Shown here: positions 45,749 through 61,107 of the stretch, in pieces | Position numbering within the stretch: the first letter of the stretch is position 1 | Layout: each line of letters begins with the position of its first letter | Origin: an uncultured Synergistales bacterium | GTDB lineage: Bacteria; Synergistota; Synergistia; Synergistales; Aminobacteriaceae | Assembly (NCBI GenBank): GCA_905234075.1 | Contig: CAJOGI010000001.1 | Span: forward strand, 186,001 to 250,000 | Length of the DNA: 64,000 bases | Direction of reading: 5' to 3' | Program-made: the position numbers and the translations under genes | The notes under the pieces: model-generated | Databases searched by the model: none | What the model was told of the DNA's origin: nothing | What the model saw: only the letters and a program-made list of their open reading frames with translations

Positions 45749-46864
45749 CTAATTCACTTTTTTTCTTGACGCTTTAACTTTTTTAGCGGCATTTGAGATT
45801 TTTGCTTTCACTGTCTCGACAACATCAGACTTCTGAATTTTTTCGGACGGAATTTTTTTCACGGACTCTCCGCTTCCGATTAAAACGGCGATTGAATGAA
45901 GGCTCTGAATGTTTTCGCAGACAATCTTAATAATTGAGATTATCGGAGTTGAAAGCAGCGCACCGGGTATTCCCCAAATCATTCCCCATAATAATAACGA
46001 AAGCAAAATCACAACGGGACTTACGCCCAGCCTGTCGCCGACTACTTTAGGCGTTATTATATTTCCTATCGTAATTTGAATGGCTGTCAGCGAGAGCAAA
46101 ACTAGAAGAGGCTTGAAAAGTCCCGGTGAAAATTGAATAACCGCCATAATGACCGGCGGAATGGTAGCTATTATTGAGCCTACTGTAGGAATAAAATTCA
46201 AAAGGAACGTTAAAACGCCCCAGCCTGCAGCAAGCTGAACGCCGAACACCGTCAGGACTATCCATGCACACACGCCCGTAGCAAAGCTGATAAGAGCAAG
46301 CGTGCCTAAATATCTGCTGACCTGCTCTGAAATCGTCGAGAGAATTTTTTTCACGCGCTTGGCGTTCTGTCTGAAAGCCTTTTCGATTTTATCGTCAAGG
46401 TACGGTGCTTCAATCAACATGAACATCAAGAAAACGAACGTCATCACGAATTTACTTGAAAGCGCGATTATTAATGACGAAATATCTTTCGCGTTGTCTT
46501 TCAAAATTCCCATCCAGTTGAAATTTTTTACGGCTTCGGGCGGAACGCTCAAGACCTCCATTAAAGTACTAAGCCATTCAATTAATTTATCTGAATAAAG
46601 GGCGTAAACATGTCCAAATTCAACGACCTGTGCGGCAATAAATTTGAACCCTGCAAGCCCGATACATGTCAAAATCGAAAATACGAGAGCCACGTTAAGC
46701 CATGCGTTAAGACGCAGGGTTCTCCCTATCTGCACAACGGGCCGCAGCATCTGAAGAATAAACCACGCAATAACAAGAGGGATAAAAACATTGCTCGCTA
46801 TGTGAAGAACTGAGCAAAGCGCAATAGACGACAGAAAAATCAACAGGGCAAGAAGCATTTTCAT
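45749..46864 (-). CDS. AI-2E/PerM-family permease
   Basis: A 371-residue inner-membrane protein with about seven to eight membrane segments. Family blocks are FIPLVIAWFILQMLRPVV, a central loop region, LLNFIPTVGSIIATIPPVIMAVIQF and GNIITPKVVGDRLGVSPVVILLSLLLWGMIWGIPGALLSTPI. The family contains AI-2 exporters, Na+/H+ antiporters and proteins of unknown role. The ATG overlaps the stop of the TraF-like gene (ATGA), so it is translated as the last gene of the type IV secretion operon. A Lys-rich tail ends the protein. Confidence 0.85.
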   Translation of the reverse strand: MKMLLALLIFLSSIALCSVLHIASNVFIPLVIAWFILQMLRPVVQIGRTLRLNAWLNVALVFSILTCIGLAGFKFIAAQVVEFGHVYALYSDKLIEWLSTLMEVLSVPPEAVKNFNWMGILKDNAKDISSLIIALSSKFVMTFVFLMFMLIEAPYLDDKIEKAFRQNAKRVKKILSTISEQVSRYLGTLALISFATGVCAWIVLTVFGVQLAAGWGVLTFLLNFIPTVGSIIATIPPVIMAVIQFSPGLFKPLLVLLSLTAIQITIGNIITPKVVGDRLGVSPVVILLSLLLWGMIWGIPGALLSTPIISIIKIVCENIQSLHSIAVLIGSGESVKKIPSEKIQKSDVVETVKAKISNAAKKVKASRKKVN

Positions 46865-47418
46865 TGAGATTTTTTCATCTCCTGTTCTTTGTTCTCAAAT
46901 ACTAAATCCGAAGTAAATATCAGCACTGCTTTTCGGCACTTATCAATCCTTGCAGGTCCAAGATAACGAGAGTCAAAACCGCGAGCGACATCGCTTGTAA
47001 GCCACACTTCATCAGAAGCAAGTTTAATAGGGAGCGGGTATGTTTCTAATTTAGTGCCTATATTGTCCGTAGACAGTGCCACACTGTGATTAAGAATTTT
47101 TCCGGCTGCTATTTCGTAGCCCTCGCTTGAAAGTTCGATTAAGTCGCCGGGAAGTCCCGCAATGCGCTTCAAAAACGGAATCTCCCTGCCCCGCTTATCT
47201 TTCCAGCGATATATTTCGGGCACCCAGTCCGTAAATTTGAAAGCCTCAAGCGGAAGTTGAACAACGTCGCCGTAAGTAAATTCATCATCTGAAATCCACC
47301 AGAAACCTAAAGGGACAGACGAGCTGATATTAATCACAATTCTTCCAGTGAAAAACGGAGCGGCCAAGACCGCCCCGATAATAATCACTGAAAGTACAAA
47401 TTTTCTGTTGAAGTTCAT
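46861..47418 (-). CDS. traF: TraF-like S26 signal peptidase of the type IV secretion operon
   Basis: A 185-residue protein with one N-terminal membrane segment (LSVIIIGAVLAAPFFTG). The S26 catalytic Ser is in NISSSVPLGFWW and the catalytic Lys in IPFLKRIAGLPGDLIEL. The last block DVARGFDSRYLGPA is typical of TraF. In RP4, TraF trims the C-terminus of the TrbC pilin and closes it into a ring. Its presence with a trbC-like gene here supports the same maturation. It lies two bases after trbI. Confidence 0.88.
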   Translation of the reverse strand: MNFNRKFVLSVIIIGAVLAAPFFTGRIVINISSSVPLGFWWISDDEFTYGDVVQLPLEAFKFTDWVPEIYRWKDKRGREIPFLKRIAGLPGDLIELSSEGYEIAAGKILNHSVALSTDNIGTKLETYPLPIKLASDEVWLTSDVARGFDSRYLGPARIDKCRKAVLIFTSDLVFENKEQEMKKSQ

Positions 47419-47419
47419 C

Positions 47420-48715
47420 TTATCTGCGCCAGCTCTTCGGGAAAATCATGTCGCGCTGTACCATCATAACAAATCTGGTACCCGGCCTGATGGTTATGGT
47501 CGGCTGACGCTGCAATTCGCGCTGAATTATCTGCGTCATCACTTCTCCGATGGCAGTTGCAACTCTCGTAGATAAAACGTCTCCGACACTGCGGTTATTA
47601 TTATTGTTATTGTTGTTGTTATTATTATTGTTGTTGTTCGGCTGGGCAAGTTCAACGCCTGCACCGATTAACGACACCAATAACGCTGAAGACAGAAGCG
47701 AACCTAAATGATTGTTGACTTTTCCTTTTAAGCCCGCATAGCCTGACTGATCCGAAGCGTTAAGATTATCAAGAATAAGCGATGTGCCGTCCGGGAATAT
47801 CAGTCTGTTCCATACGATTAAAGCTCTGTTCTGCCCGTATGCTATCTGATTGTCATAATTTCCGATGACTCTGGTGCCTCGCGGAATTAAAAGATAACGC
47901 CCCGTAACAGTATCCCAGACGTTTTCAGAAACCTGCCCGATAGCATTGCCGGGTAAATCCGAATTAAGACCTGATACAAGCACGCACGGAATTATAGTTC
48001 CAGCTTTAACTTCAAATCTGCTGACAGGGTTACTCACTGAATTTTGAGAATACTCCACCGGCCTGGCTTGATTGCGGAAAGCGTCTTTCCTGCCCCAGCC
48101 GTTTGGGTCCATCGCAGAGATATTCGCGCTGGATCCGCCGCCTCCCTCGTCGCCCATATCCATTCCCATTCCTGACGACATAGCGGATTCGCTTCCGCCT
48201 GCCATTGCAGAGTCAACGGCCTCCACGTTTGACATCGCGTCAGTATTGCTGCTCGCGGCAGACACTGAAGTAGCAGAAGTAGCGGCTGCCATTCGGCTAT
48301 CATGAGCATCTCTCCTTACCTGTGAAATCCAAGGCATTCTTCCGTACGCAGGAACGACCGAACGGCGCGGCTGCTGAGGCACGGGCACATAAATAATCTG
48401 CGGCTGCTGCGGCTGAGGTGTCGGTGCGCCTAAATCTTCCGGCGGTTCAGGTTCAGGGTCCGGCTGACGAAGCTCAATAGGCGGAATAACTGCGGTACTC
48501 ATTGCAGGCTTGACAGTAATATCCTTCGGCGCACTTCCTCCGGTTATGGGCTGTTCTGAGGTCAGAATTGCTCCCGCTACGAGGAGAAAAACCGCCGCGC
48601 CCCCCGCAAATACAAAGAGAGCTATACGTTTTGCGGAAGAGCTTGCCATTTTCGTTTTACCGGCAAGCGGCTCAAAGCGGTCCAGCTTGTTCTGTTCAAA
48701 TTCATTTTCCTGCAT
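47420..48715 (-). CDS. trbI: type IV secretion protein TrbI/VirB10
   Basis: A 431-residue protein. It has a short cytoplasmic start, one membrane segment (IALFVFAGGAAVFLLVAGAIL, about 31-51), a Pro-rich periplasmic stretch (QPDPEPEPPEDLGAPTPQP), a Ser/Ala/Met-rich linker, and the conserved C-terminal domain from EVKAGTIIPCVLVSGLNSDLPG through RYLLIPRGTRVIGNYD and LQRQPTITIRPGTRF. It spans the envelope and forms the outer core ring with TrbG. A run of 15 Asn (codons AAC and AAT, 47594..47638) interrupts the domain near GAGVELAQP, where the antenna region is expected. Confidence 0.92.
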   Translation of the reverse strand: MQENEFEQNKLDRFEPLAGKTKMASSSAKRIALFVFAGGAAVFLLVAGAILTSEQPITGGSAPKDITVKPAMSTAVIPPIELRQPDPEPEPPEDLGAPTPQPQQPQIIYVPVPQQPRRSVVPAYGRMPWISQVRRDAHDSRMAAATSATSVSAASSNTDAMSNVEAVDSAMAGGSESAMSSGMGMDMGDEGGGGSSANISAMDPNGWGRKDAFRNQARPVEYSQNSVSNPVSRFEVKAGTIIPCVLVSGLNSDLPGNAIGQVSENVWDTVTGRYLLIPRGTRVIGNYDNQIAYGQNRALIVWNRLIFPDGTSLILDNLNASDQSGYAGLKGKVNNHLGSLLSSALLVSLIGAGVELAQPNNNNNNNNNNNNNNNRSVGDVLSTRVATAIGEVMTQIIQRELQRQPTITIRPGTRFVMMVQRDMIFPKSWRR

Positions 48716-48718
48716 TGA

Positions 48719-49951
48719 TTAACGATACCTCCGTTTTTCCGATTGCTTCGCTGTCTGCCGCAGAATTTCTTCCTCACGGTTCGCCTTTATATTAGTGTCA
48801 ACTAATTTTTCTTTGCGCGTGATTACTACAGTTCTTGAGCCTACTCTTAAATATGCCTTGTCGAAAAGTCTGTCAACGACATAATAGCGGCCCTTCACGC
48901 GATAGTTTGCCATAGCGGGCTTTCTGTCAACAACAATATAAAATGCCGGCGTTTCGCTAAATCTCAAAGGCATACGGATATAAGTTTTTAAGCCGTCGTC
49001 AAAAACAGCGGACGGGCACCAGTCAACCTTGCTCTTGTTTGTAATCGAGTACTGCGTGTAAAGGTCCTCAAATTCTAACGAGTCAGTGCCCGACTGAAGC
49101 TCATCTTCAAGCTCCTTTTGAGGGCGCGCAGCGGCTTGGCTGTTCACAAAGATCGTAGATAAATCATTCATGTTGTACGAGAACGCAACTCCGCGAAGAT
49201 AATTAGCTCCGTCAGTAGACGTGAAGTCAAGGTTATAAGTTCTTCTGTCGGTGTGAATAAGCATATTTGTTGAAATGCCAGGCTGTAACGGCTTGACAAC
49301 GATGTGAGAAACAGGCTGCCCGTTCTTCATTGACTGAGAGGGCGAGAACTGCCAGCGCGTAGTATCACCGGCGTGAATACCCATAATTGATTCGCCGGGC
49401 TCAAGGGCAATGTCAGTCATTCTGAGCGGTCTGCATGTTATGACGGGAACAACTTCGCCGTAAGGATAAATTACATAACCCTGCTCGCCGATGAAAGGAT
49501 TTGTAGCGTCTTTAGCATCGTCAAAGCCCTTTCTCATGTCAAAGACAAGCGAGTCATAGCGGCGCAGTTTTATTTCCTTGTCCATTTTTTCCCACTGCTG
49601 AATACGAGCGCGTTCCTCGCGGGCTTCCTGCAATGCGTGCTGATAATCTTCATACTGTCTATAATCATTCTGAGGATCATTCGTGGCAGTACTCAGCGGC
49701 GAACCGTCATTGAGAATATTCTGCTGCTGTTGCTGCTGTTGCTGCTGGTAGTAATAATTATAGCTGTCGCCGACTCCGATTTCAGAAGGAAGAATTATCT
49801 GCCCAGTTTCAGGATTGTAGCCTACCTCCATAGGAGCAGCCGGAGCAGGAGCCTGAGCCGCGTCAGGAGCAACAGCATCAGCCGCAAAAATTACGGCAGG
49901 GAAAGCAAGTAATACTAATAAAAACGTAACAATACCGCGAATTAATTTCAT
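48719..49951 (-). CDS. trbG: type IV secretion protein TrbG/VirB9
   Basis: A 410-residue periplasmic protein with signal peptide (IVTFLLVLLAFPAVIFAADA). An N-terminal low-complexity part contains nine Gln in a row (49721..49747). The VirB9 domain (from about 140) has YPYGEVVPVITCRPLRMTDIALEPGE, TNMLIHTDRRTYNLDF and the C-terminal FDDGLKTYIRMPLRF, YRVKGRYYVVDRLFDKAYLRVGSRTVVIT. It forms the outer-membrane core with TrbI. No lipoprotein VirB7 or TrbH gene is evident. Confidence 0.92.
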   Translation of the reverse strand: MKLIRGIVTFLLVLLAFPAVIFAADAVAPDAAQAPAPAAPMEVGYNPETGQIILPSEIGVGDSYNYYYQQQQQQQQQNILNDGSPLSTATNDPQNDYRQYEDYQHALQEAREERARIQQWEKMDKEIKLRRYDSLVFDMRKGFDDAKDATNPFIGEQGYVIYPYGEVVPVITCRPLRMTDIALEPGESIMGIHAGDTTRWQFSPSQSMKNGQPVSHIVVKPLQPGISTNMLIHTDRRTYNLDFTSTDGANYLRGVAFSYNMNDLSTIFVNSQAAARPQKELEDELQSGTDSLEFEDLYTQYSITNKSKVDWCPSAVFDDGLKTYIRMPLRFSETPAFYIVVDRKPAMANYRVKGRYYVVDRLFDKAYLRVGSRTVVITRKEKLVDTNIKANREEEILRQTAKQSEKRRYR

Positions 49952-49971: not shown

Positions 49972-50688
49972 TTAATTATTAACAATATCTTGAGCCATAT
50001 TTAACTCAGTTAAATAAATCCCCAAAGGATTTTTAATTATTTCTGCCACATCCTGAGCAGGCGAAATAGCTATCGATACAATAGCACGCCACTCGGTTGT
50101 ATTCTGTATAGTTCCGCCGCTAACTTCTTTCTCCGTCCAAAGTATCTGCCATGATTTTCCGTCAGTACCGACACCTAAGACTGAAACTATTTCAACCAGA
50201 ATTGCGCGCTTCTGCTCGTTGTTGAATGGGTCATTTTCACGATAATAGTGAGTTACTATATCTTCTGCCGCACTGCCTGTTGCCAAGTAGTTGTAGACTT
50301 CATCAACCATTCTGCGCTGTGCATAAGGATCGGCCACTATCGTCTTGAAGTTCGTGATAAAACGGCTCAAAGCGGCAATAATAACCCGCTGGTCATTCGG
50401 CGATACTTGGGTTGCCGGCTTTATCGCAACTGAATACCCCTGCTTGTCAACCTGCACGACGTAAGGCGTAACTTTGTTCTGGCTCGACTGCCATATCATT
50501 AATGCCCCGAAGCAAAGAGACAGCAGCAGCAGAAGAAAACAAATCTGTCTCCAGCGTGCTGCCTCGTTGACGGCCGCGCCATAGCGATCCCCGTATTCCT
50601 TCCGGGCGGAAAGGTAGGGATTTTCCATTGCCTCTTGCCTTTCCTTTTCCTTTTTTTTGCTAAAAAATGACATTTTAGGCTTATTCAC
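49972..50688 (-). CDS. trbF: type IV secretion protein TrbF/VirB8
   Basis: A 238-residue inner-membrane protein. It has a basic cytoplasmic start, one membrane segment (ICFLLLLLSLCFGALMIWQ, about 49-67) and a periplasmic NTF2-like domain with VTPYVVQVDKQG, FITNFKTIVADPYAQRRMVDEVYNYL and SWQILWTEKEV. It assembles the inner part of the channel. It is next to trbG as in other Trb systems. Confidence 0.92.
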   Translation of the reverse strand: MNKPKMSFFSKKKEKERQEAMENPYLSARKEYGDRYGAAVNEAARWRQICFLLLLLSLCFGALMIWQSSQNKVTPYVVQVDKQGYSVAIKPATQVSPNDQRVIIAALSRFITNFKTIVADPYAQRRMVDEVYNYLATGSAAEDIVTHYYRENDPFNNEQKRAILVEIVSVLGVGTDGKSWQILWTEKEVSGGTIQNTTEWRAIVSIAISPAQDVAEIIKNPLGIYLTELNMAQDIVNN

Positions 50689-50726: not shown

Positions 50727-52007
50727 CTAACCTCTCGACACTGACTCGCTGTCAGCTGCGGCCCGTCCCGGAGCTGAAACGCTTGCCCCGTAGTCAAATC
50801 TCGGCTGAACAATATCTCTTGTTGTCGCTGTTCTCGGTGCGCCGCCAGTATCCGGCGGAACGTAATTGCTGAACGTTGCTCCGCCCGAAGACGCACGAAG
50901 TGCCGCTTCCCTCTGGTCAGGACGAAGATTTGTCGGATTCAAATTCGAGCCTCCGAACATAAGTTCATCTGCCCTTGCCGTGTATGCAGCCTGATTACTT
51001 TGAGCTTGGCCCGCCGCATAACTGCCGTAAGGTCTATTAGCATCCGTTACGCTTCTGACGGGCTCATACGGATGTCTGCTGACGTCATATACAGGATTAT
51101 ACGGCGTGTAGCCGATGACAGGCTCGTTATGTCCGAACGTCATTGAAGCTCCCGTTACGATTTTCTGCGCAATGCTCGGAATTATTATGACTATCATTAA
51201 TACGCAGATCGTTCCGCCAAGTATCTGGCCTGACTGAGTTATTAATGCCGTCATGTCCGTCGCGCTCTTAAATTCATTTTCCCAATTAGGAATGACTTTT
51301 ATAGCGATAGAATAGACAAACAGTATCATTAATAACTTCATGCCGACGGAAATTGAATAACGTATATAGCTCAACGCTATGTCCCGCGTATATTCAAAAC
51401 CTCCGAAGCCAAGCAGAATAGCTCCGCCGCTTATTACTAAGTGCATTTCAACTATCGCAACAGCTATAAATCCGGCCGTTATCGCAATAACAACTAAAAT
51501 CACTATGCCGATGAACGTTAAACCGACAAAATCTCCCCAGCCGGCGTTCCAGCCGCGCTCCACGATGATACCGTAAATTCTTATTCCTGAAGCTAAAAGA
51601 TTGTCCGGCGAAATATCGGCAGGGTTAGTGCCCATTTTTCCGCCGATAGCTACGAACGAGTTTACTATTATCTTAGGAATGAAAGACACGGTGTTGAGAT
51701 TTGCCAGCATCCACGTAAAAACTCCGACATAAATAATCCACTTGGCTATATGCGACATCAGCGAGCCGATGTTGCTTTCTCCCATCAGCAGCATTCTGAT
51801 TAATCCCATTGCCAGCGAGATTGTCGCAAGTCCGACAAATAAATTCCGCGCTATCGCCAAGAAATTTTCCGCCGTTTCCGATGAAAAATTCATCAGTTTT
51901 GCGGCTTCTTCTACCGTCGTATTCAGTCCCGAATCGTCCGCAAATGCCTGCGTGATTGAGATAAACAGCAGCGTAAATAAAATTATGCAAAATATTTTTT
52001 TTGACAT
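50727..52007 (-). CDS. trbL: type IV secretion membrane protein TrbL/VirB6
   Basis: About 426 residues from the ATG at 52007. TTAGGA, inside the 3' end of the preceding gene, is its ribosome site. It has an N-terminal signal segment, then six or so membrane segments (for example ITAGFIAVAIVEMHLVISGGAILLGFGGFEYTRDIALSYIRYSISVGMKLL) typical of TrbL, which forms the inner-membrane channel. The last 130 residues are polar and low complexity (DANRPYGSYAAGQAQSNQAA). It is coupled to the 52010 gene. Confidence 0.9.
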   Translation of the reverse strand: MSKKIFCIILFTLLFISITQAFADDSGLNTTVEEAAKLMNFSSETAENFLAIARNLFVGLATISLAMGLIRMLLMGESNIGSLMSHIAKWIIYVGVFTWMLANLNTVSFIPKIIVNSFVAIGGKMGTNPADISPDNLLASGIRIYGIIVERGWNAGWGDFVGLTFIGIVILVVIAITAGFIAVAIVEMHLVISGGAILLGFGGFEYTRDIALSYIRYSISVGMKLLMILFVYSIAIKVIPNWENEFKSATDMTALITQSGQILGGTICVLMIVIIIPSIAQKIVTGASMTFGHNEPVIGYTPYNPVYDVSRHPYEPVRSVTDANRPYGSYAAGQAQSNQAAYTARADELMFGGSNLNPTNLRPDQREAALRASSGGATFSNYVPPDTGGAPRTATTRDIVQPRFDYGASVSAPGRAAADSESVSRG

Positions 52008-52009
52008 TT

Positions 52010-53047
52010 TCAAAATCCTAACTTACATTTTTTCGTCTTCGGCTTGTAATTTTTCAAGTTCACGGCAACTTCATTAACGGCCTTCTGTCTGTCGTTGCGC
52101 TCGTCAATCTTGTCGAGTTTGCGCTCGATGTAACTTCCCATGATGCCCTGAAGAGCCTGCCCGTCGCGCTCAAACATTATATTCATGTTGTCAAGATAAC
52201 CGCCGATAGCCTGAAGAGCCTGCGTCTGCCCGGCAGGTTTTTTAACAATCTCCATGAGAGCGTTACGAATTTTCAAATCAATGTCCTTAAAATGCGAGGT
52301 GTTTCTATTCACCGCCCTGAGATATTCTTTAACGCTACTCTTCCATTTCGTCTGCCGATCGTTAATTCTTTTCGCCGACTGGGCAATCGTCATTCCAGAC
52401 TTCCATTCCGGGAACCGCTTACTCTTGTTAGGAGACATCAGTCCGTCAAGGTCTCTCGCAACTTCAGAATAAAATGGCGAATTATTCAAAATACTTGCCG
52501 CCACATAAAGATTTGTCAAAAGCTCGTCGCGGGGGTTGGTGATTACGCTTTCACTCCATGTCTCGAGCATTTTCTTCTGGTCGTCCCGAATGCCGTGCAG
52601 CTTCAGCATTTCAACTAACGTCAAAACGGCTATGGCGATCTGCGAAGGCTCCTGCGCCCAATAAAGTTTATTATCAGGCGATGTTTTCTGCTGGTCTTTC
52701 GAGTCCGGGTCCTTTGACCAGTCGTCAGGATTGGTAGGATCAACATCAATTTTTTCGGGGTCCAACCCCTTCACCTCTTTCAGCCATTCATTGAAAGACA
52801 TATCCTTCGAGCGCGGGTCTTTTTCGTATTCCTTATACCATTCCTTCTGACGCCTTTTTATTTCTTCTGCGTCGTCAGCGTATGCAGGGCGGAGTGAAAA
52901 AGACTGCTTCACAAATTCCTTGTGCGTCTCGTACCACTTCGCAAAATCAAAATTTTCTTTTCTATTGCCCAGCGTTGCAAAAGAACACAGCACCAGAAAA
53001 GCTACAAGCAGGAACGCAGCCGTAATAAATTTTTCAACCGTCTTCAA
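52010..53047 (-). CDS. TrbJ/VirB5-position exported protein 4, KLGF tail
   Basis: A 345-residue protein with a signal peptide or anchor (FITAAFLLVAFLVLCSFA). A charged, probably disordered part (about 60-125) precedes a helical region. WAQEPSQIAIAVLTLVEMLKLH, DRQTKWKSSVKEYLRAVNRNT and KPAGQTQALQAIGGYLDNMNIMF align with the next protein and resemble the QALQA block of TrbJ/VirB5 minor pilins. It ends KKCKLGF. The start is a TTG with GGAGGTGGTGA. It sits in the trbJ position before trbL. Confidence 0.7.
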   Translation of the reverse strand: MKTVEKFITAAFLLVAFLVLCSFATLGNRKENFDFAKWYETHKEFVKQSFSLRPAYADDAEEIKRRQKEWYKEYEKDPRSKDMSFNEWLKEVKGLDPEKIDVDPTNPDDWSKDPDSKDQQKTSPDNKLYWAQEPSQIAIAVLTLVEMLKLHGIRDDQKKMLETWSESVITNPRDELLTNLYVAASILNNSPFYSEVARDLDGLMSPNKSKRFPEWKSGMTIAQSAKRINDRQTKWKSSVKEYLRAVNRNTSHFKDIDLKIRNALMEIVKKPAGQTQALQAIGGYLDNMNIMFERDGQALQGIMGSYIERKLDKIDERNDRQKAVNEVAVNLKNYKPKTKKCKLGF

Positions 53048-53078
53048 AAATCACCACCTCCGAAAAAATTTCTCAAAG

Positions 53079-53816
53079 CTAAAATCCCAATTTACATGTT
53101 TTAATCGTGGGACTGTAGGCTTTCAGTTTCGCGCAGACCTGCATTGTCGTCTTGCTGAAGTCCTGACGGCCGTCCATTTCGTCGCGCTCGTATTCAGCGT
53201 ATGCCGTTATGAAGGACTGTATAGCCTGCTCGTTCAACGCCATCATTGTCGCCGCGTAATCCATAAAGCCTGCCAAGCTCTGAATGGCCTGCACCTCTCC
53301 GTTCGGCTTCTTGAGAAGGTCAAAGAGACGTTCTCTTAGTACCCTGTAGTCGGCGTTAAGGCTCTGTGTCGTATTTACGGATTTCAAATAAGCCTTGACA
53401 GTGTCCCTCCATTTCGTTTCGCGGTCGCGCTGACGTTTTTTAACATCATCAAGCGTCAGGTTGTCCTTCCATGCGGGGTGGCGTTCCTTCAGGCGCGTTT
53501 CGATTTCCTCCGACATGTGCGTCAATGCGCCGGAGCTAGTCATAGTTGCTCTTAAATTTTTAACGGCCTTAATCAGCGTATCGCGCTGTTCTTTCATTTT
53601 CTTATACTCGTAGCTGTCAGTCTTCCAACGCTTGAGCATTTTGTCCTGATCATTAAGGATTGTTTCAAGCGTCGAAATTTCTTCCTTAATCATGAGGGCT
53701 ATACCTATCTGCGTAGGCTCCTGCGCTAAAAGACATTCAGCGGCACGGGCAGACATAAAAATAAAATTCATCGCCATAACCGCCGTTAAACAGAACGCTA
53801 TAAATTTTTTATTCAT
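53079..53816 (-). CDS. TrbJ/VirB5-position exported protein 3, KLGF tail
   Basis: A 245-residue protein with signal peptide (FIAFCLTAVMAMNFIFMSARAA). It is the shortest and most TrbJ-like of the four: helical, with LAQEPTQIGIALMIKEEIS after cleavage, then DRETKWRDTVKAYLKSVNTTQ and KPNGEVQAIQSLAGFMDYAATMMALNEQ. These three blocks occur in the same order in the 52010 protein, so the two are duplicates. It ends IKTCKLGF. TrbJ/VirB5 proteins act at the pilus tip or in mating-pair contact. Confidence 0.75.
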   Translation of the reverse strand: MNKKFIAFCLTAVMAMNFIFMSARAAECLLAQEPTQIGIALMIKEEISTLETILNDQDKMLKRWKTDSYEYKKMKEQRDTLIKAVKNLRATMTSSGALTHMSEEIETRLKERHPAWKDNLTLDDVKKRQRDRETKWRDTVKAYLKSVNTTQSLNADYRVLRERLFDLLKKPNGEVQAIQSLAGFMDYAATMMALNEQAIQSFITAYAEYERDEMDGRQDFSKTTMQVCAKLKAYSPTIKTCKLGF

Positions 53817-53837
53817 TCAATCACCGCCTTCATAAAA

Positions 53838-55373
53838 TTAAAAGCCCAATTTCGCTTTCTTGCGCGTAATAGTCTTCGTGGCCGCATTATGACCCATTAA
53901 ATCAATATTCGTGTGAGCCGCATTCTTAATTGACCGCTTATTCTGCAAGGGAGTTAATCCCATTTCCGTGAGACTGAACGCCGTAAAAGCATTGCCCCAC
54001 GTCTGTGCGCCAAAAAGTTTCGCCCCGACACCTAAATATTGAAATTGCGCCGTCTGCGCCATTCCTGTTTTGCCCGACACCGGCACATATATCGTATAGG
54101 GTTCCTCGTGGGTTTCCGTATATTGTTCTATTCGGCTTTCCTCGTACTCTATAATTTCGGTTTCCTCGTAAAATTCAAGGTGCTTTTCCTCGTATGGTAC
54201 CTGGACTGTCCTATAGCCGATTCTAGTAGAAGTTTCCGTTTTTGTATCAAAATCATTTCTAATAAATGAAGGAATCTTACTATTAGGAATGAGCCAATGA
54301 CTCTTCATATACTTTACCAGATAATCATAGGAGTACCACGCATTAGACTTCAAAGTCGTATAAAACATATGTATCGCAATATTGTCCTTCATTCGATACA
54401 TGGTAATAGTTACTTCATATGTATATTCCTGCAATTCTGTCCGATATTTTATTTCTGTTACTTCCCTTGACTTTTTCACGGTTATCGGCTTTTTCTTTTT
54501 CTCGGTTACTATCCTTGACTTTGTTTCCGTTACCGTCCTTGTCCCTGTCTTTATCTCCTGTACATCGCTTTCAATAGAGAACATTTTTTCAAGGAGCAGA
54601 TTGCGCGAATTAAGAGAATCTTTATCAAACAAAGCATTGTGCATTATGCCCATGACCCATAAATGGCCGAGTTCGTTTTTGCGCCACCTTTCGGTCAGTC
54701 TGTCATCTTCACTAATAACCGAATTAAAGCCGCTGTAACTCGGATAAACGGAGTCATAAGGGTTGGCATTAAGTAAAAACGTAGGGCCGTACTGTTCGAG
54801 CCTCAAGTCGTAATATCTGTCAACCGCTCTGATAACTTCTTCGCCTAAGTCGGAAAATCCGCTGATGTCGTCTTTTACATTAGTCTGCGGCATTCTCGCT
54901 TCCCATCTGGGGAAAGTTTCTTTTCTGCGTTTTTCGACTTCTTTGCTGATGTAATTTTGAGCGAACCGCCAGTTCATCGGCAGGAACGTTGAGTCCTGAG
55001 TGTTGTCGTCGTCCTTGCAATGACAGCGCGGGTATATAGGGAGGTCAATCATCTCGCGAAAGACTTTCATACCGTCCCAAATTTTTCCGACTATGCCTCC
55101 GACATAGGGAATTAACCTGAGAGCCATTTCAACAACTTTATCTATTGCCCAGTTCGCCAGCTTCCTGATGAGCTTTTGAAGGTACTGAGGCCAGCACATT
55201 TCAACTAAGCGGAACAAGTGATCCCTGTTGACGTTCTCAAAAGGAAGTTCGCCCTTTGTAATGTCAGCGGCAAAAGCGGCAGTGGCGTTGAAAGCGTCAA
55301 CGGCTATAGGCGCAATCGTAACAAAAATCAAAACCGCCGTGATAATTTTTAACAAAAATTTTTTATTCCGCAT
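53838..55373 (-). CDS. TrbJ/VirB5-position exported protein 2 with Thr/Glu/Tyr repeats, KLGF tail
   Basis: A 511-residue protein with signal peptide (IITAVLIFVTIAPIAVDAFNATAAFA). The N-terminal half resembles a helical assembly domain with two Cys in YPRCHCKDD. Residues about 272-326 and 375-431 are short-period repeats rich in Thr, Arg, Glu and Tyr (TRTVTETKSRIVTEKK; YEEKHLEFYEETEIIEYEES) that would give long exposed beta strands. Between them is a globular piece, and after them a short helical block (MAQTAQFQYLGVGAKLFGAQTW). It ends RKKAKLGF. The function is unknown; an extended surface fibre is plausible. Confidence 0.65.
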   Translation of the reverse strand: MRNKKFLLKIITAVLIFVTIAPIAVDAFNATAAFAADITKGELPFENVNRDHLFRLVEMCWPQYLQKLIRKLANWAIDKVVEMALRLIPYVGGIVGKIWDGMKVFREMIDLPIYPRCHCKDDDNTQDSTFLPMNWRFAQNYISKEVEKRRKETFPRWEARMPQTNVKDDISGFSDLGEEVIRAVDRYYDLRLEQYGPTFLLNANPYDSVYPSYSGFNSVISEDDRLTERWRKNELGHLWVMGIMHNALFDKDSLNSRNLLLEKMFSIESDVQEIKTGTRTVTETKSRIVTEKKKKPITVKKSREVTEIKYRTELQEYTYEVTITMYRMKDNIAIHMFYTTLKSNAWYSYDYLVKYMKSHWLIPNSKIPSFIRNDFDTKTETSTRIGYRTVQVPYEEKHLEFYEETEIIEYEESRIEQYTETHEEPYTIYVPVSGKTGMAQTAQFQYLGVGAKLFGAQTWGNAFTAFSLTEMGLTPLQNKRSIKNAAHTNIDLMGHNAATKTITRKKAKLGF

Positions 55374-55388
55374 AGTTTCACCTCTTTG

Positions 55389-56807
55389 TTAAAACCCCAG
55401 CTTGACTTTTTTTGCGCTTGAAGCCGTTTGAGCTTTTCTGCCTGCAATGACCATGTTGTTACGGACGGCGGTCTGACGCGCTACTCTCGTGTGTTCGGCG
55501 GTGAGCTGCATTTCCAGGAAGCCGTTGAGTTCCCTGTTAGTTCTGTTTGCAGCCATAGCCATTTGAGCGGCCTGACTTCCGACAGCCTGAAGAACCTGCG
55601 TCTGTCCGTACTTATAAGCCTTCAAATCTAACAAGCCTTTCAGCTTGTCAAGAAAATCAGAAATTTTATCTAAGCCTAAAGCACTCGTAATTTTCTTTAG
55701 AAGATCCAGAACGTCGCTAGTGTCCGCATCTTTAAGTGAGGCGAGCTTTTTCAGCGTTTCCTCAAAATTCAGAATCATCTCAAGGGGGTTAAAACCGCCA
55801 AAAAGATTTCCCAAAATTTTATCTGCGTCGAGATTTTCATCAATATATTTTCCGAGCAGGTCCCCCACAAGAGGTATTTTTGAAGCTATATTTTTTACCG
55901 TATCCTTAATCTGATTAACTTTGTCCTTTATTTGCTGCACTACGGTAGTAGCTTTCTTTACAAAGTCTATGATCGGCTGGATAATCTTTGTAAGCTCTCC
56001 TGCAAGTTCTCCGACTTTGCGTACGATTTCCCCTAAATAGCCCAGTGCCGTTTTAACAAAATCCAGAACAGACTGCACAATGCCGCCGGGGTTAAGCCCT
56101 ATAATCTGCTCTATAACGTCATCAACCTTAGCAATGGCCAGGTCGTTTTCCCAAATTAATTTGTGAAGTTTGTTGAGGTTTTCCGCCTCTTCTTTCATCT
56201 GATTGCCGGACTTGTTGAGGCATATAACCCAGTTAGTTTCAAGGTCGATCCATTGCTGAGTGAGCCTGAGGTCCTCGACGGCCGCCGCAATGAAATTCAC
56301 GTATTCGGGGAAATAAACGTTGAACGCTTTGTCATAATCAGGGGCAACGCAAAGAGCATTAGCGGCTCTTAATATATTGTCGCTGTCAATCATGATCTGG
56401 TCGGAAGCAGATGTAGGTATTGCAGAATTTTTGCTTGAGTCCTTTACTTCCGTCCGTATCATGGCGGCGTAATTCATGCGGATACGGGACCACCATTTCC
56501 AGTGCCGCTCCCACTGTTTATTACGCCAGTCTTTTTGGGACTTGTACATTATGGGCTCCATAGCCCAGCCCAGAGGCCACCAGCAGGTACAGTATTGACT
56601 GCCCCACTTGTCGCCTGCTGATTTAAGACAGTTCTTGCGGTGTCCGCCGACCTGCCAGTAAGGCCACCACGAGGGGGTGCTTTTCTTGGGCTTGTCGTCG
56701 TCTGCCGCAAATGCCACGACAGGCTCAACGAGAGAGCCTATCAGGCATGTTAAAACAAGAATTGAAACTAACCTAACAAAAAATTTAGACCGCAGGTGCG
56801 GGAACAT
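55389..56807 (-). CDS. TrbJ/VirB5-position exported protein 1, KLGF tail
   Basis: About 472 residues from the ATG at 56807 (AGAGGG nine bases upstream; an earlier ATG at 56828 has no site). It has a signal peptide (VSILVLTCLIGSLVEPVVAFA). After it come Trp/Cys-rich blocks (WWPYWQVGGHRKNC; YCTCWWPLGWAMEP), a long amphipathic, coiled segment (about 235-385, rich in VDxIxxxVxxI periods), and a C-terminal GQTQVLQAVGSQAAQMAMAANRTNRE block shared in style with TrbJ. It ends SAKKVKLGF. It overlaps trbE by 23 bases. Confidence 0.68.
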   Translation of the reverse strand: MFPHLRSKFFVRLVSILVLTCLIGSLVEPVVAFAADDDKPKKSTPSWWPYWQVGGHRKNCLKSAGDKWGSQYCTCWWPLGWAMEPIMYKSQKDWRNKQWERHWKWWSRIRMNYAAMIRTEVKDSSKNSAIPTSASDQIMIDSDNILRAANALCVAPDYDKAFNVYFPEYVNFIAAAVEDLRLTQQWIDLETNWVICLNKSGNQMKEEAENLNKLHKLIWENDLAIAKVDDVIEQIIGLNPGGIVQSVLDFVKTALGYLGEIVRKVGELAGELTKIIQPIIDFVKKATTVVQQIKDKVNQIKDTVKNIASKIPLVGDLLGKYIDENLDADKILGNLFGGFNPLEMILNFEETLKKLASLKDADTSDVLDLLKKITSALGLDKISDFLDKLKGLLDLKAYKYGQTQVLQAVGSQAAQMAMAANRTNRELNGFLEMQLTAEHTRVARQTAVRNNMVIAGRKAQTASSAKKVKLGF

Positions 56808-59301
56808 AGTTAGCACCCTCTTCCTCATCGGGGTGTTCTGAATGTAATCGCTTGTCGATCTTCAGCCATTCTTCGGCCCAGTCCGAGAGACCTCTGAACT
56901 TCAGCCACTCAACGGGCCACGTGCGGCCGTACTTGGCTTTTAATTCCTCGACTTTAGCGAGCTCATGACCGCTGCTTGCTCCGACAAACGCAAGAGCAAC
57001 AGGGCCGAGACCTAAATTAAATACGCGCCTTCCGTCCGGCGAAAGAATGTAATACTCGCGCTTACGCACCATATGAGCCAGCAGATTAATCTGACGTTCA
57101 TTGAGCTGTAAGAAATCGCGGTAGAACGCTCCGAGCTGTGCGCCCCTTGCGTCCGGGTTTGCGAGCAGAATTTTCGTCGGGCAGCTTTCAAAGACCGGGT
57201 CCCTGATCGTACTGTTGACAACGTCGGCGATTGACTGTGTAGCAAGAATGACAGCGCAGTTTAATTTTCTGAACGTCTTTAGCCAGCCGCGAATTTTTTC
57301 GGCGAAAAGTTCATTTTTCAAAGCCGTCCATGCCTCGTCAACGACCAAGAGAGCAGGGTTGCCCTTCAATCTTCTTTGAATCTGGAAGAACAAATACGTC
57401 AAGACCGCCGGAGCTATTTTGTCGCGCTCGAGAAGTCCTCCGATTTCAAAAACGTTAAATGACGCATAATTAATATCATTTCTATCACCGTCAAGAATGT
57501 AGCCGCCGCTCTGGCTTAAACTGTAATAGCCTAAGGCTGCCTTCATTTCCTGATCTTGAAGCGAAGTAATATACTCCGTCAAAGTTCTTTCTTCCGCTTT
57601 TGTAGTGCTTGCCGCCAAGTTTTTGAGAGCGTCAGTCAATAAAATTCTTCTCTGGGGCGTAACAACGCCGGGCGAAACAAGTTCGGCGAGCATTTCCAGC
57701 CATTCCGCAGCCCAAGCCAAAACGTCGGGGTCGTCAATTTCTGCCAAAGGACATAAGCTGATTTCGCTTTCAGCCTTGCCCAAGTCATAAAAGACCGAGT
57801 CGTCAAGGGCTTGGCATAACGGGAATATTGAACGTCCGTTATCGAAGAAGAATAACATGCCGTTTCTGTAACGCTGGAACTGTGCCGCGAGCGTCGCCAA
57901 GAGAGTTGATTTTCCTGAGCCTGTAGGCCCTAAGATCAAAGTGTGCCCCAAGTCTCCGCTGTGAATGTTCAATGAGAACGGAGTGCCGCCGCTTGCCGCT
58001 GCCTGTAACAATGCAGGCGAATGAGGCGGATAGAACGGACACGGGCAGGTCTTTGAGCCGAGCCACTCGCTTGAAAGGGGCAGAATATCAGAATAATTTA
58101 TGCTTGTAACAAGCGGCTTTCTGACGTTTTCATGACCATGACCGGGCAATGAGCCTAAGAAAGCCTCTAAATTATTCAAGCTCTCAATCTGAGCTGAACA
58201 GCCTGCACGCTCAAAAACTTTGACAACTTCACGCGCAGCTTCTTCGAGACGTTCGGGGTCTCTGTCGCGCAGAATTACGACTGATGAATGGTTGCCGAAA
58301 GCCATATCGCCGCTTCGGGCATCTTTTAAGGCCATGTCCAAGTCCTGAACCATTGAGGCCGCGTCGTGGTCTATTCTGTTGCTTTCCGTGCCTGCGATCT
58401 GCGATGTAAGGCTTTTAACTTTCTGTTCCCACTGCCTGCGCTTTGCCTCTATCTGGCTTATCGAGTCCTGAATGTCAGTCATCAGGAGCCTGTTCGACCA
58501 CCTGAAGGCTATGGGCATAGTCTGAAGAGCATGAAGAATTGTCGGGAAAGTTCCGGCAGGATAATTCATCAGCGAAATGCACTGCACATATTCTTCATCG
58601 TATTTTAATCTCTGCCCGTTGAGACAGTCGCGGGCCAGGAAACAGTCAAGATAATACGGAAAGACCGGGAGCCTCGTCGGGTGCCAGTATCCGTTGACGC
58701 AGGCGTTCACGGCTTCTAAAAGTTCGGAAGTTCCTGAGTATTCTCTGTCCTCATCGGGATAAAAAGTCATTCTGCGGACTTTCATACTTAAAGACAGAGA
58801 GTCAAAAAGACGCTTCATTACAGCCTCAAAGCGAGCTAACTGTCTTTCTGTAGTCTCTTCCTCGCTTACCCTCGAAGCTCCGAACATAAACCGCCCTATG
58901 CGCTGAATAAATTTATTTCTCTCGTAAGCCGGCGGCGTATATGTAACGAACATGGCCTGAACGGACTCAAAGTGTCCCGACTCTTTATGAAACTGAAGAT
59001 CGCGTTCAAGGTCAATTAATTTCGTTGTCGTCTCCGTGAAATCTCCTGTAGGATATTCGCGGACTTCGCGTCGGAAAAATTCATAATGAATGCACCAGCG
59101 GACATCGAGCTGCGCAATCGTATGAGAGATCATCGAGCTTAAATGCTCAAGTTCCCGTGCGGTGGAACTTTCAAGATCAGGCCCGGCAAGCCAGAAGCCG
59201 CCCAGCAAGCCGCCGTCCTTTAATGCCATTACTTCGGGAGCTGCCATATGCGAGTAGCGAAGCAGTTCCGCAAAACCGTTCCCTTCCGGCTTTTTTGCCA
59301 T
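56785..59301 (-). CDS. trbE: type IV secretion ATPase TrbE/VirB4
   Basis: An 838-residue ATPase. The N-terminal CagE/TrbE/VirB domain spans about 1-430. The ATPase domain has Walker A LGPTGSGKST (457-466), Walker B ALLVVDEAWTAL, and AVILATQSIADVVNS, LLANPDARG and YYILSPDGRRVFNLGLGPVALAF. It powers pilus assembly and substrate transfer at the inner membrane. It lies in the standard place after the trbD-like gene. Length is normal for VirB4. Confidence 0.94.
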   Translation of the reverse strand: MAKKPEGNGFAELLRYSHMAAPEVMALKDGGLLGGFWLAGPDLESSTARELEHLSSMISHTIAQLDVRWCIHYEFFRREVREYPTGDFTETTTKLIDLERDLQFHKESGHFESVQAMFVTYTPPAYERNKFIQRIGRFMFGASRVSEEETTERQLARFEAVMKRLFDSLSLSMKVRRMTFYPDEDREYSGTSELLEAVNACVNGYWHPTRLPVFPYYLDCFLARDCLNGQRLKYDEEYVQCISLMNYPAGTFPTILHALQTMPIAFRWSNRLLMTDIQDSISQIEAKRRQWEQKVKSLTSQIAGTESNRIDHDAASMVQDLDMALKDARSGDMAFGNHSSVVILRDRDPERLEEAAREVVKVFERAGCSAQIESLNNLEAFLGSLPGHGHENVRKPLVTSINYSDILPLSSEWLGSKTCPCPFYPPHSPALLQAAASGGTPFSLNIHSGDLGHTLILGPTGSGKSTLLATLAAQFQRYRNGMLFFFDNGRSIFPLCQALDDSVFYDLGKAESEISLCPLAEIDDPDVLAWAAEWLEMLAELVSPGVVTPQRRILLTDALKNLAASTTKAEERTLTEYITSLQDQEMKAALGYYSLSQSGGYILDGDRNDINYASFNVFEIGGLLERDKIAPAVLTYLFFQIQRRLKGNPALLVVDEAWTALKNELFAEKIRGWLKTFRKLNCAVILATQSIADVVNSTIRDPVFESCPTKILLANPDARGAQLGAFYRDFLQLNERQINLLAHMVRKREYYILSPDGRRVFNLGLGPVALAFVGASSGHELAKVEELKAKYGRTWPVEWLKFRGLSDWAEEWLKIDKRLHSEHPDEEEGANYVPAPAV

Positions 59302-59344: not shown

Positions 59345-59656
59345 TCAATATTGTTTATCAGGGTGTAATGCCCTTGATGTTGCTGAATAGGCGTCCTTGT
59401 AGTTCATGGCACGCTGAAAAACTTTCAGCATGTCAGGGTCGTACTTTGCCATACTGCCGAGAAATCTGACTCCTACAATAAAAAGCGCAATAGCTACAAC
59501 AACGTTAAGATAATTGCCGGCCGCAATTCCGCCGGTAAATCCCATTCCCATGCAGACCAAGAGCAATAAAAGGAAAGGGATACGGTCGCAGCCGAAAATC
59601 AGCTGAGGCCGTGTCAAACTCCTTCTTACGGGAGCAATCCTAATGTTTTCGTCCAT
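59345..59656 (-). CDS. trbD: type IV secretion protein TrbD/VirB3
   Basis: A 103-residue membrane protein with two close hydrophobic segments (IPFLLLLLVCMGMGFTGGIAAGNYLNVVVAIALFIVGV), preceded by APVRRSLTRPQLIFGCDR, the VirB3 signature. It is followed by MAKYDPDMLKVFQRAMNYKDAY. It associates with TrbE. It lies between the pilin and trbE genes. Confidence 0.88.
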   Translation of the reverse strand: MDENIRIAPVRRSLTRPQLIFGCDRIPFLLLLLVCMGMGFTGGIAAGNYLNVVVAIALFIVGVRFLGSMAKYDPDMLKVFQRAMNYKDAYSATSRALHPDKQY

Positions 59657-59676: not shown

Positions 59677-60045
59677 TTAGAACAGTACGCAGCCGCTTGC
59701 ATTGGGGACAAACTTCAGTACGAGGGTAGAAATTCCCGTAAGCGATGAACCGACGATGATAACCATCATGAGCATTCTCGTAAAGTTTCCAAGCTCGCCG
59801 CCAAAAATCAAAATGCCGCCCGCGAAGAAAAGTCCGAGCATGGAAATAAAAAGAGCTGTCGGGCCGGAAAGAATGTTAACCAACTCACTGAGACCACTGC
59901 TCCACGGTACCGTCTTGTCGCCTTTAGGGTCAGTAGCTTTACCGGCGTGTGCCTCGAAGGGAGCGCAGACGATGAGGGAAATGAAAATTGCCGCAAAAAT
60001 TGCTGCTCTGTGAGCATTGAGAATTGAGAAAATACTTTTTTTCAT
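59677..60045 (-). CDS. trbC: type IV pilin TrbC/VirB2
   Basis: A 122-residue prepilin. The signal peptide probably ends at AHA (residues 32-34). Two hydrophobic segments (LVNILSGPTALFISMLGLFFAGGILIFGG and MLMMVIIVGSSLTGISTLVL) form the helical hairpin of VirB2-type pilins. The chain ends NASG-CVLF: a Gly at 118 followed by exactly four residues, as in RP4 TrbC, where TraF removes a tetrapeptide and joins the new Gly to the N-terminus. The mature ring would be residues 35-118. This is inferred from pattern. Confidence 0.88.
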   Translation of the reverse strand: MKKSIFSILNAHRAAIFAAIFISLIVCAPFEAHAGKATDPKGDKTVPWSSGLSELVNILSGPTALFISMLGLFFAGGILIFGGELGNFTRMLMMVIIVGSSLTGISTLVLKFVPNASGCVLF

Positions 60046-60132: not shown

Positions 60133-61107
60133 TTAATTACCGTTATTATTTTCGCGCAGGTCTCTGAAGATATAATCTCCGTTTTCAGTAAGACCATCGA
60201 CAGCTATTAATTCGGCGAGACGCGGCCCGATCTTCGGGTCTCTGACTAAGAACGCGACGACGTTAATAGCTTCCGCCACAAGTTCGCGCATCGGTGTCTC
60301 CGAAACTTCCGAAATAAGCTGCTCAATTCTTAACAAACCTGCACGTGCATCGTTAGCGTGAACGGTGCAAACCCCTCCAGGGTGTCCTGTGTTCCATGCC
60401 TTAATCATGTCGAGGGCTTCTTTGCCTCTGACCTCGCCGATGATAATTCTGTCGGGTCTCTGGCGCATTGTGATCTTTAATAAATCCTGCATGGAAATCT
60501 CGTCATTTGTCCTCATTGCAACGTAATTATCAACGGTGCATTGAAGCTCCTGAGTATCTTCAAGAATTAATAATCTGTGTCCGGGCGTGAGTAATTTAAT
60601 CTCATTAAGGATAGCATTAACAAAAGTTGTTTTGCCTGTTCCTGTTCCGCCGACGACGAGAATATTTTTGCGTTTTTTTACGGCATCGCGCAAAATTTCG
60701 ACATCGCTTGCCAGAGCGCGTCCGCTTTGAACGTACTGTTCGAGCGAAAAGACCGAAGACGCTTTCTTTCTCAAGTTAAAAGACGGCTTAGGAACGACGG
60801 GAGGAATGACTCCCTCAACACGGCTGCCGTCGCCTGGAAGTTCTCCTTCAACTTTGGGATTATGAACGTTGATAACAGTGCCGAGCATGTGCGCGATAGT
60901 TCCCAGCATTTGAAGAGCCTGAACTTCGGGCATGTCGCAAAGATATTTCATGCCTGCTCCGAGCCTGTCGGTCCAAACTGTTCCGTCAGGGTTCAGCATA
61001 ACTTCAACAACGGACGGATCGTCCATCGCTTCACGTACTGTCGGCCCCATCTCACGGCGCAGTTTATTCAAATTTCGTCTGGTTACTTCATCTGTTGCAC
61101 TGCTCAT
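60133..61107 (-). CDS. trbB: type IV secretion ATPase TrbB/VirB11
   Basis: A 324-residue hexameric traffic ATPase with N-terminal domain (1-130), Walker A GGTGTGKT (153-160), Asp box LLILEDTQEL, Walker B RIIIGEVRGKEALDMIKAWNTGHPGG, and the His box VHANDARAGL. It drives substrate and pilus switching together with TrbE. It is the first gene of the operon and has an AGGAGG site. The upstream 61108..61332 contains the divergent promoter region. Confidence 0.95.
   Translation of the reverse strand: MSSATDEVTRRNLNKLRREMGPTVREAMDDPSVVEVMLNPDGTVWTDRLGAGMKYLCDMPEVQALQMLGTIAHMLGTVINVHNPKVEGELPGDGSRVEGVIPPVVPKPSFNLRKKASSVFSLEQYVQSGRALASDVEILRDAVKKRKNILVVGGTGTGKTTFVNAILNEIKLLTPGHRLLILEDTQELQCTVDNYVAMRTNDEISMQDLLKITMRQRPDRIIIGEVRGKEALDMIKAWNTGHPGGVCTVHANDARAGLLRIEQLISEVSETPMRELVAEAINVVAFLVRDPKIGPRLAELIAVDGLTENGDYIFRDLRENNNGN

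Follow-up and report, generated by a model that had tools for sequence, protein, structure and literature searches.

VirB5 is the pilus-tip protein of type IV secretion systems (T4SS) and the first to meet the recipient. In one described T4SS, that of Helicobacter pylori, several proteins share their last residues: CagH, CagI and CagL, encoded by three adjacent genes, end in a common hexapeptide that is spelled with divergent codons and that no other protein of the genome carries (PMC3164655; PMC5399799). According to these papers, deleting it abolished T4SS function (CagA translocation), pili were lost when it was removed from CagI or from CagL, and CagH and CagI without it were mislocalised; CagL is regarded as VirB5-like (PMC3164655; PMC5399799). 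We describe here a comparable arrangement in a stretch of 64,000 nucleotides (hereafter the window) from an uncultured Synergistales bacterium (assembly GCA_905234075.1, contig CAJOGI010000001.1, positions 186,001 to 250,000 of the forward strand), in which four consecutive genes of a Trb-type T4SS operon, hereafter the array, all end in the tetrapeptide KLGF.

Two other described machines are relevant to this locus. The Trw system of Bartonella has several variant copies of TrwJ/VirB5 and of TrwL/VirB2 and no coupling protein, and the passages dealing with these copies propose that they form variant pili (PMC2610397). In the R388 machine, a pentamer of the VirB5 protein TrwJ stands on a pentamer of TrwI/VirB6, each copy lodged between a pair of VirB6 subunits and pointing its N-terminal part outward; the TrwJ chain has 229 residues, of which 32-229 were modelled (PMC9259494). 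Since the model reaches the last residue, the C-terminal tail of TrwJ is ordered.

The array is on the minus strand. Gene 1 (U1 type, 479 residues, 55389..56828), the first after trbE, ends in KKVKLGF, with KLGF and stop spelled AAG CTG GGG TTT TAA (55389..55403); gene 2 (U2 type, 511 residues, 53838..55373) ends in KKAKLGF (AAA TTG GGC TTT TAA, 53838..53852); gene 3 (J1 type, 245 residues, 53079..53816) ends in KTCKLGF (AAA TTG GGA TTT TAG, 53079..53093); and gene 4 (J2 type, 345 residues, TTG start, 52010..53047), which precedes trbL, ends in KKCKLGF (AAG TTA GGA TTT TGA, 52010..52024, overlapping the trbL start). An earlier note on this DNA, made from the letters alone, had reported four consecutive genes with the ends CKLGF, CKLGF, AKLGF and VKLGF, four different codon spellings and a Shine-Dalgarno sequence downstream of three of them. 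Open reading frame (ORF) ends and a genome-wide pattern search confirmed the first statement, the spellings are as it described, and Shine-Dalgarno-like sequences do lie 3' of three of the four stops. Its lengths agree for the proteins of 345, 245 and 511 residues, but the 472 residues given for gene 1 are obtained only from an internal ATG at 56807, the first ATG giving 479.

The pattern for KLGF followed by a stop, AARYTNGGNTTYTRR, has six matches across the source genome (1,838,289 bases), four of which are the array genes; one of the remaining two ends in TGG and thus has no stop, and the other falls where no ORF of at least 60 residues ends. The count that the earlier note had suggested is therefore clear: no other gene of this 1.84 Mb genome ends in KLGF, so that all four KLGF-ending genes adjoin one another in one operon. 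The shared KLGF tail is real, non-random and functionally suggestive, and a chance origin was rejected by this count together with the background of other gene ends.

The array proteins are also related to one another. All four have in common a C-terminal helical domain of the TrbJ/VirB5 type, their divergence being mainly N-terminal, and the tail is therefore no label attached to otherwise unrelated proteins; the earlier description of widely differing bodies holds for the N-terminal parts but not for this domain. Genes 3 and 4 are paralogs with 35% identity over their last 216 residues. Gene 1 has a C-terminal GQTQVLQAVG helical domain as in TrbJ-type paralogs, and gene 2, whose body is the most divergent, aligns with other U-type proteins in its C-terminal region. 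With the TrbJ profiles TIGR02780, NF010448 and NF010416, we obtained TIGR02780 (TrbJ_Ti) matches for 10 of the 13 members of the J class (the type of genes 3 and 4; best E 4.6e-11) and TrbJ-profile matches for 3 of the 15 members of the U class (the type of genes 1 and 2; best E 2.7e-11). The window's own 245- and 479-residue proteins had no TrbJ-profile match reaching E 0.1, and a Pfam scan of the four array proteins gave sub-threshold chance matches only. In the alignment the U class shows the same C-terminal layout (GQTQALQ, helix, tail). Gene 2 has orthologs in three relatives (support 100/99), and the J and U classes are split by a branch with 100/100 support. The AlphaFold2 (AF2) model of the 245-residue protein is all-helical, with a predicted local distance difference test score (pLDDT) of 74 and a last helix (174-233) followed by a short tail. 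A profile search of the PDB returned nothing relevant, a scan of IMG/VR with the J profile no confirmed relative, and tblastn against plasmids only weak rhizobial TrbJ matches. These data show that the four proteins of this one operon are paralogs; the best explanation makes them copies of TrbJ/VirB5, the subunit of the stalk and pilus tip, and we hold it with the moderate confidence that we give to the docking explanation as a whole (see below).

Related systems were gathered first by TrbJ-type similarity and then, with the tails left out of account, by TrbE similarity in GTDB genomes. The nearest relatives belong to Fretibacterium-like Synergistaceae, the majority of them from ruminant stomachs. 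Wherever a contig includes both flanks of an array, the genes lie between trbE and trbL; there are four in the window genome, G014, G020, G025 and G019, three in G013, G097, G098 and G171, and two in G009 and G030. The end [LIMVFP]-G-[FL]-x0-2-COOH (hereafter phi-G-[FL]) was found in 38/38 array proteins against 2/181 other ORFs, one of these two being an array member missed from the list. The Gly is invariant in this family and the rest of the tail varies by system (KLGF/KIGF/KMGF; RKLGL/RKLGF/RKFGF; SYxxGF/SHKIGF; FxLG[FL]; FTPGFK); a variant of KLGF was present at every orthologous multi-gene locus, which the earlier note had proposed to search. Neither of the two conditions that would have refuted that note, frequent KLGF ends in this genome or their lack at orthologous loci, was thus found. 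Synergistaceae systems with a single trbJ (L093-L104, L111, L112) have conserved ends of their own (...PDxSLIDRLGN; ...SPVxWxW), and TrbJ C-termini are therefore lineage signatures in general.

The tails change in concert within a system. Over the last 8 residues, similarity was 0.60 within a system versus 0.42 for same-position orthologs, which 0/2000 permutations reached, and the excess persisted when only one KLGF system was kept. The adjacent residues -20 to -12 had the reverse pattern (0.11 within a system versus 0.35 for orthologs), so that the concerted change is confined to the tail. The tails of TrbE, TrbL, TrbF, TrbG and TrbI from the same loci, used as controls, showed no within-system likeness (407/1000), and genome amino-acid composition was therefore rejected as the cause. 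In G009 and G030, FTPGFK is carried by J-class and U-class proteins alike; RKLG[FL] occurs in both classes of G019, and SYxxGF in both classes elsewhere. Because these tails are shared across the 100/100 J/U split, a later change hit all copies together.

A rival explanation is plain inheritance, by which the tail would be the conserved end of the TrbJ domain, derived from the ancestor of the tandem duplicates without any shared receptor. The paralogs do share their C-terminal domain; furthermore, the last residue is aromatic in 19/40 distinct single-copy or distant TrbJ tails versus 5.5% of the other ORFs in the loci collected, and an aromatic end may therefore be ancestral. However, inheritance predicts tails that track orthology like the adjacent segments, and the tails track the system across the deep J/U split. 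It is already disfavoured by the comparison of within-system and ortholog tails, and we consider it unlikely.

The same behaviour recurs independently in a second type of array, found by a profile search of 183 Synergistales genomes followed by inspection of the loci. In termite-gut Synergistaceae (a label resting on the isolate names of a few loci), a separate T4SS lineage has a VirB5-like array at the same place, with proteins ending in ...W...(G)xY. We recovered nine such arrays. In six, the contig spans trbE as well as trbL, and each of these has exactly five genes (L190 4699-9290; L192 2684-8037; L195 1071-5130; L196 1707-5766; L197 4765-9091; L198 5305-9356), and the three others, with one flank each, have five genes too. 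Tyr is the last residue in 38/40 proteins, after a stretch rich in Ser, Thr, Gly and Gln, and tail similarity again tracks the system and not the position. The position of these arrays, a weak similarity to TrbJ (E 5e-4) and their architecture suggest that they are of the VirB5 type.

The earlier note had proposed that the tail could be a docking or a processing tag. The tail is specific to these T4SS genes, and docking agrees with its concerted change within systems; processing fares less well. Under processing, the TraF-like S26 peptidase encoded at the end of the operon would cut behind the conserved Gly, which is also the cleavage expected in the TrbC pilin. This would fit the invariant Gly of the phi-G-[FL] family and the pilin ends, in which Gly precedes a hydrophobic tetrapeptide (SGCVLF, EGCMLL, SGMLLL). 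But the array tails have 1-3 residues past the Gly versus 4 in the pilins of the operon and do not conform to a TraF-pilin leader, and the five-gene family, two of whose systems do have a detected S26-like peptidase, lacks a conserved Gly at this place. Processing of the array proteins thus appears improbable.

Concerted evolution by gene conversion between the tandem 3' ends, the tail itself being unselected, seems to us very improbable. The genes are in tandem and the two FTPGFK tails of G009 differ at one codon only, so that G009 alone would permit conversion. However, taking all systems, identical tail residues had the same codon in 80/164 cases versus 72+/-6 expected from codon usage, or 90/212 versus 93+/-7 in a second count, and the upstream segment is not homogenised. 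As the codon matches are at random expectation, recent gene conversion is not the cause; these counts largely refute conversion in general and bear out the earlier statement that it is the amino-acid sequence of the tail that is conserved. The weakest candidate, an outer-membrane assembly signal as the earlier note had suggested (a mimic of the beta-signal of the beta-barrel assembly machinery, or a sorting tag), would account for the hydrophobic residue at -2 and the final Phe but is scarcely credible, since the sole confident model is all-helical and not a beta-barrel, the family is TrbJ/VirB5, the ends KLGFN, KIGFMR and FTPGFK break the register, and in the sister arrays the end is a Tyr preceded by polar stretches.

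We therefore favour docking and regard it as fairly probable that the tail serves as a docking peptide, specific to its system, at the C-termini of the subunits of a heteromeric VirB5 stalk or pilus tip. In each paralog a short extended tail follows the retained C-terminal helical domain of the VirB5 type, and this tail would seat all paralogs at one binding site that recurs in the machine, most likely on the VirB6/TrbL platform or on the first pilin ring on top of it. The N-terminal parts have diversified, probably for contact with targets, and the paralogs would together form a heteromeric tip. The tails would change only together because all of them fit one site. By analogy with the R388 geometry, TrbL/VirB6 may be the partner of the tail, the first ring of the TrbC pilin being the alternative candidate. 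Furthermore, exactly five genes per system in the second family, a number that matches the five-fold VirB5/VirB6 stalk, suggest a heteropentamer. A tentative extension, in our view possible but rather doubtful, is that the VirB5 stalk or tip is heteropentameric and that each paralog has its own fixed seat in it, where the shared docking tail holds it; if true, the KLGF machine with its four genes would correspond to a tip of four components.

Several observations weigh against the docking explanation or against the identification of the proteins on which it is built. The 511-residue protein has no Pfam match of its own, and its AF2 model is unreliable (pLDDT 43). In Foldseek, the model of the 245-residue protein had no match at E <= 0.001, solved VirB5 structures (TrwJ, TraC) included, and the sole subunit of a T4SS machine among its top 50 matches was CagL, at E 0.69. 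The AF2 models were of single chains only, so that we infer the binding of the tail. Some members have residues after GF (N, K or MR), and a free Phe carboxyl is therefore not strictly required. Finally, the tail of R388 TrwJ, GMPTIQ, is not aromatic.

As in the described parts of the Cag system, the motif of the window's array forms the very end of several proteins encoded in the same operon, is spelled with different codons and does not recur elsewhere in the genome. CagL and CagI, however, end in SK[IV]IVK, whereas the arrays end in phi-G-[FL] or ...G-x-Y; the arrays do not have this hexapeptide sequence and would therefore work like Cag without being members of it. CagL, CagI and CagH also lack a detectable sequence relation to VirB5, in contrast to the array paralogs, which align, and the passages cited report for Cag no concerted tail change of the kind seen here across many systems (PMC3164655; PMC5399799). 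The Trw system of Bartonella resembles the arrays in its tandem VirB5 variants and in being a T4SS that lacks a coupling protein, but trwJ-trwI-trwH is amplified there as a block, whereas here the VirB5-type gene alone is multiplied, and a shared C-terminal tail, present here, is not mentioned in the passages available for Trw (PMC2610397). With R388 TrwJ the arrays have in common a VirB5-type subunit whose gene is close to that of VirB6; R388 has one VirB5 gene and a homopentamer, in contrast to the several paralogs of the arrays. The gene position is the same as that of the IncP/Ti-type TrbJ (TIGR02780) in Ti-type loci, and most J-class relatives match its hidden Markov model. Proteobacterial TrbJ often have an aromatic last residue, e.g., ...SPARTW, but unlike the arrays the proteobacterial Trb loci examined carry a single-copy TrbJ.

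The TrbJ/VirB5 family is already known; arrays of several paralogs whose tails change in concert are a variant of it that is new, and their behaviour is closest to that of CagH, CagI and CagL. They amount to a natural experiment, in which each machine has many paralogs whose bodies can diverge while their tails stay coupled. They suggest that a short C-terminal docking peptide could be a general feature of VirB5, in which case the Cag hexapeptide of H. pylori would be an instance of a wider rule and not the oddity of one species, and five genes for five seats offer a testable idea on whether T4SS tips can be heteromeric.

In the window genome (100% complete, 18 contigs), we found neither a coupling protein (PF02534, PF12696, PF10412) nor a PF03432 relaxase, other relaxase families not having been searched. 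The genomes G014, G013, G019, G097, G098 and G171 likewise yielded neither of the two despite their complete Trb operon, within the limits set by the incompleteness of metagenome-assembled genomes. G009 and G030, the relatives with two paralogs, have both. It may thus be that the KLGF machines gave up conjugation and now serve in adhesion, as a pilus or in protein export, as Bartonella Trw turned to another role.

The T4SS operon of the window looks complete, in the order trbB, trbC, trbD, trbE, the four array genes, trbL, trbF, trbG, trbI and the S26 peptidase gene, all on the minus strand. It encodes the TrbB/VirB11-type ATPase (60133..61107, PF00437, E 5e-35), the TrbC/VirB2 pilin (59677..60045, PF04956, E 9.5e-9), a protein at the TrbD/VirB3 position (59345..59656, assigned by synteny, with homologs in relatives) and the TrbE/VirB4 ATPase at the left boundary of the array (56785..59301, PF03135, E 1.1e-20). 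At the right boundary is TrbL/VirB6 (50727..52013, PF04610, E 7.9e-20), followed by TrbF/VirB8 (49972..50688, PF04335, E 2.5e-38), a protein at the TrbG/VirB9 position (48719..49951, assigned by synteny and conserved in relatives), TrbI/VirB10 (47420..48715, PF03743, E 3e-65) and the TraF-like S26 peptidase (46861..47418, PF10502, E 2.3e-8). The core-complex proteins contain low-complexity segments, an Asn run in TrbI (NNNNNNNNNNNNNNN, 47420-48715) and a Gln run in TrbG (48719-49951). The TrbC pilin of the window, which ends in ...SGCVLF, and those of L029, L030, L031, L032 and L034 have a Gly followed by four hydrophobic residues at their ends (SG-CVLF, EG-CMLL, SG-MLLL), which is what cleavage by the S26/TraF-like peptidase of the operon predicts; the pilins of the five-gene systems do not have this end. 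In G030 and G017 the two-paralog T4SS (L036 6111-11061; L039 9860-13716) looks broken and decaying, with trbE interrupted and trbL and the array genes truncated. The TrbL proteins of the five-gene systems (L190 2729-4732; L192 7791-10214) carry long C-terminal repeats, PDAMARGG and PDARGGVI.

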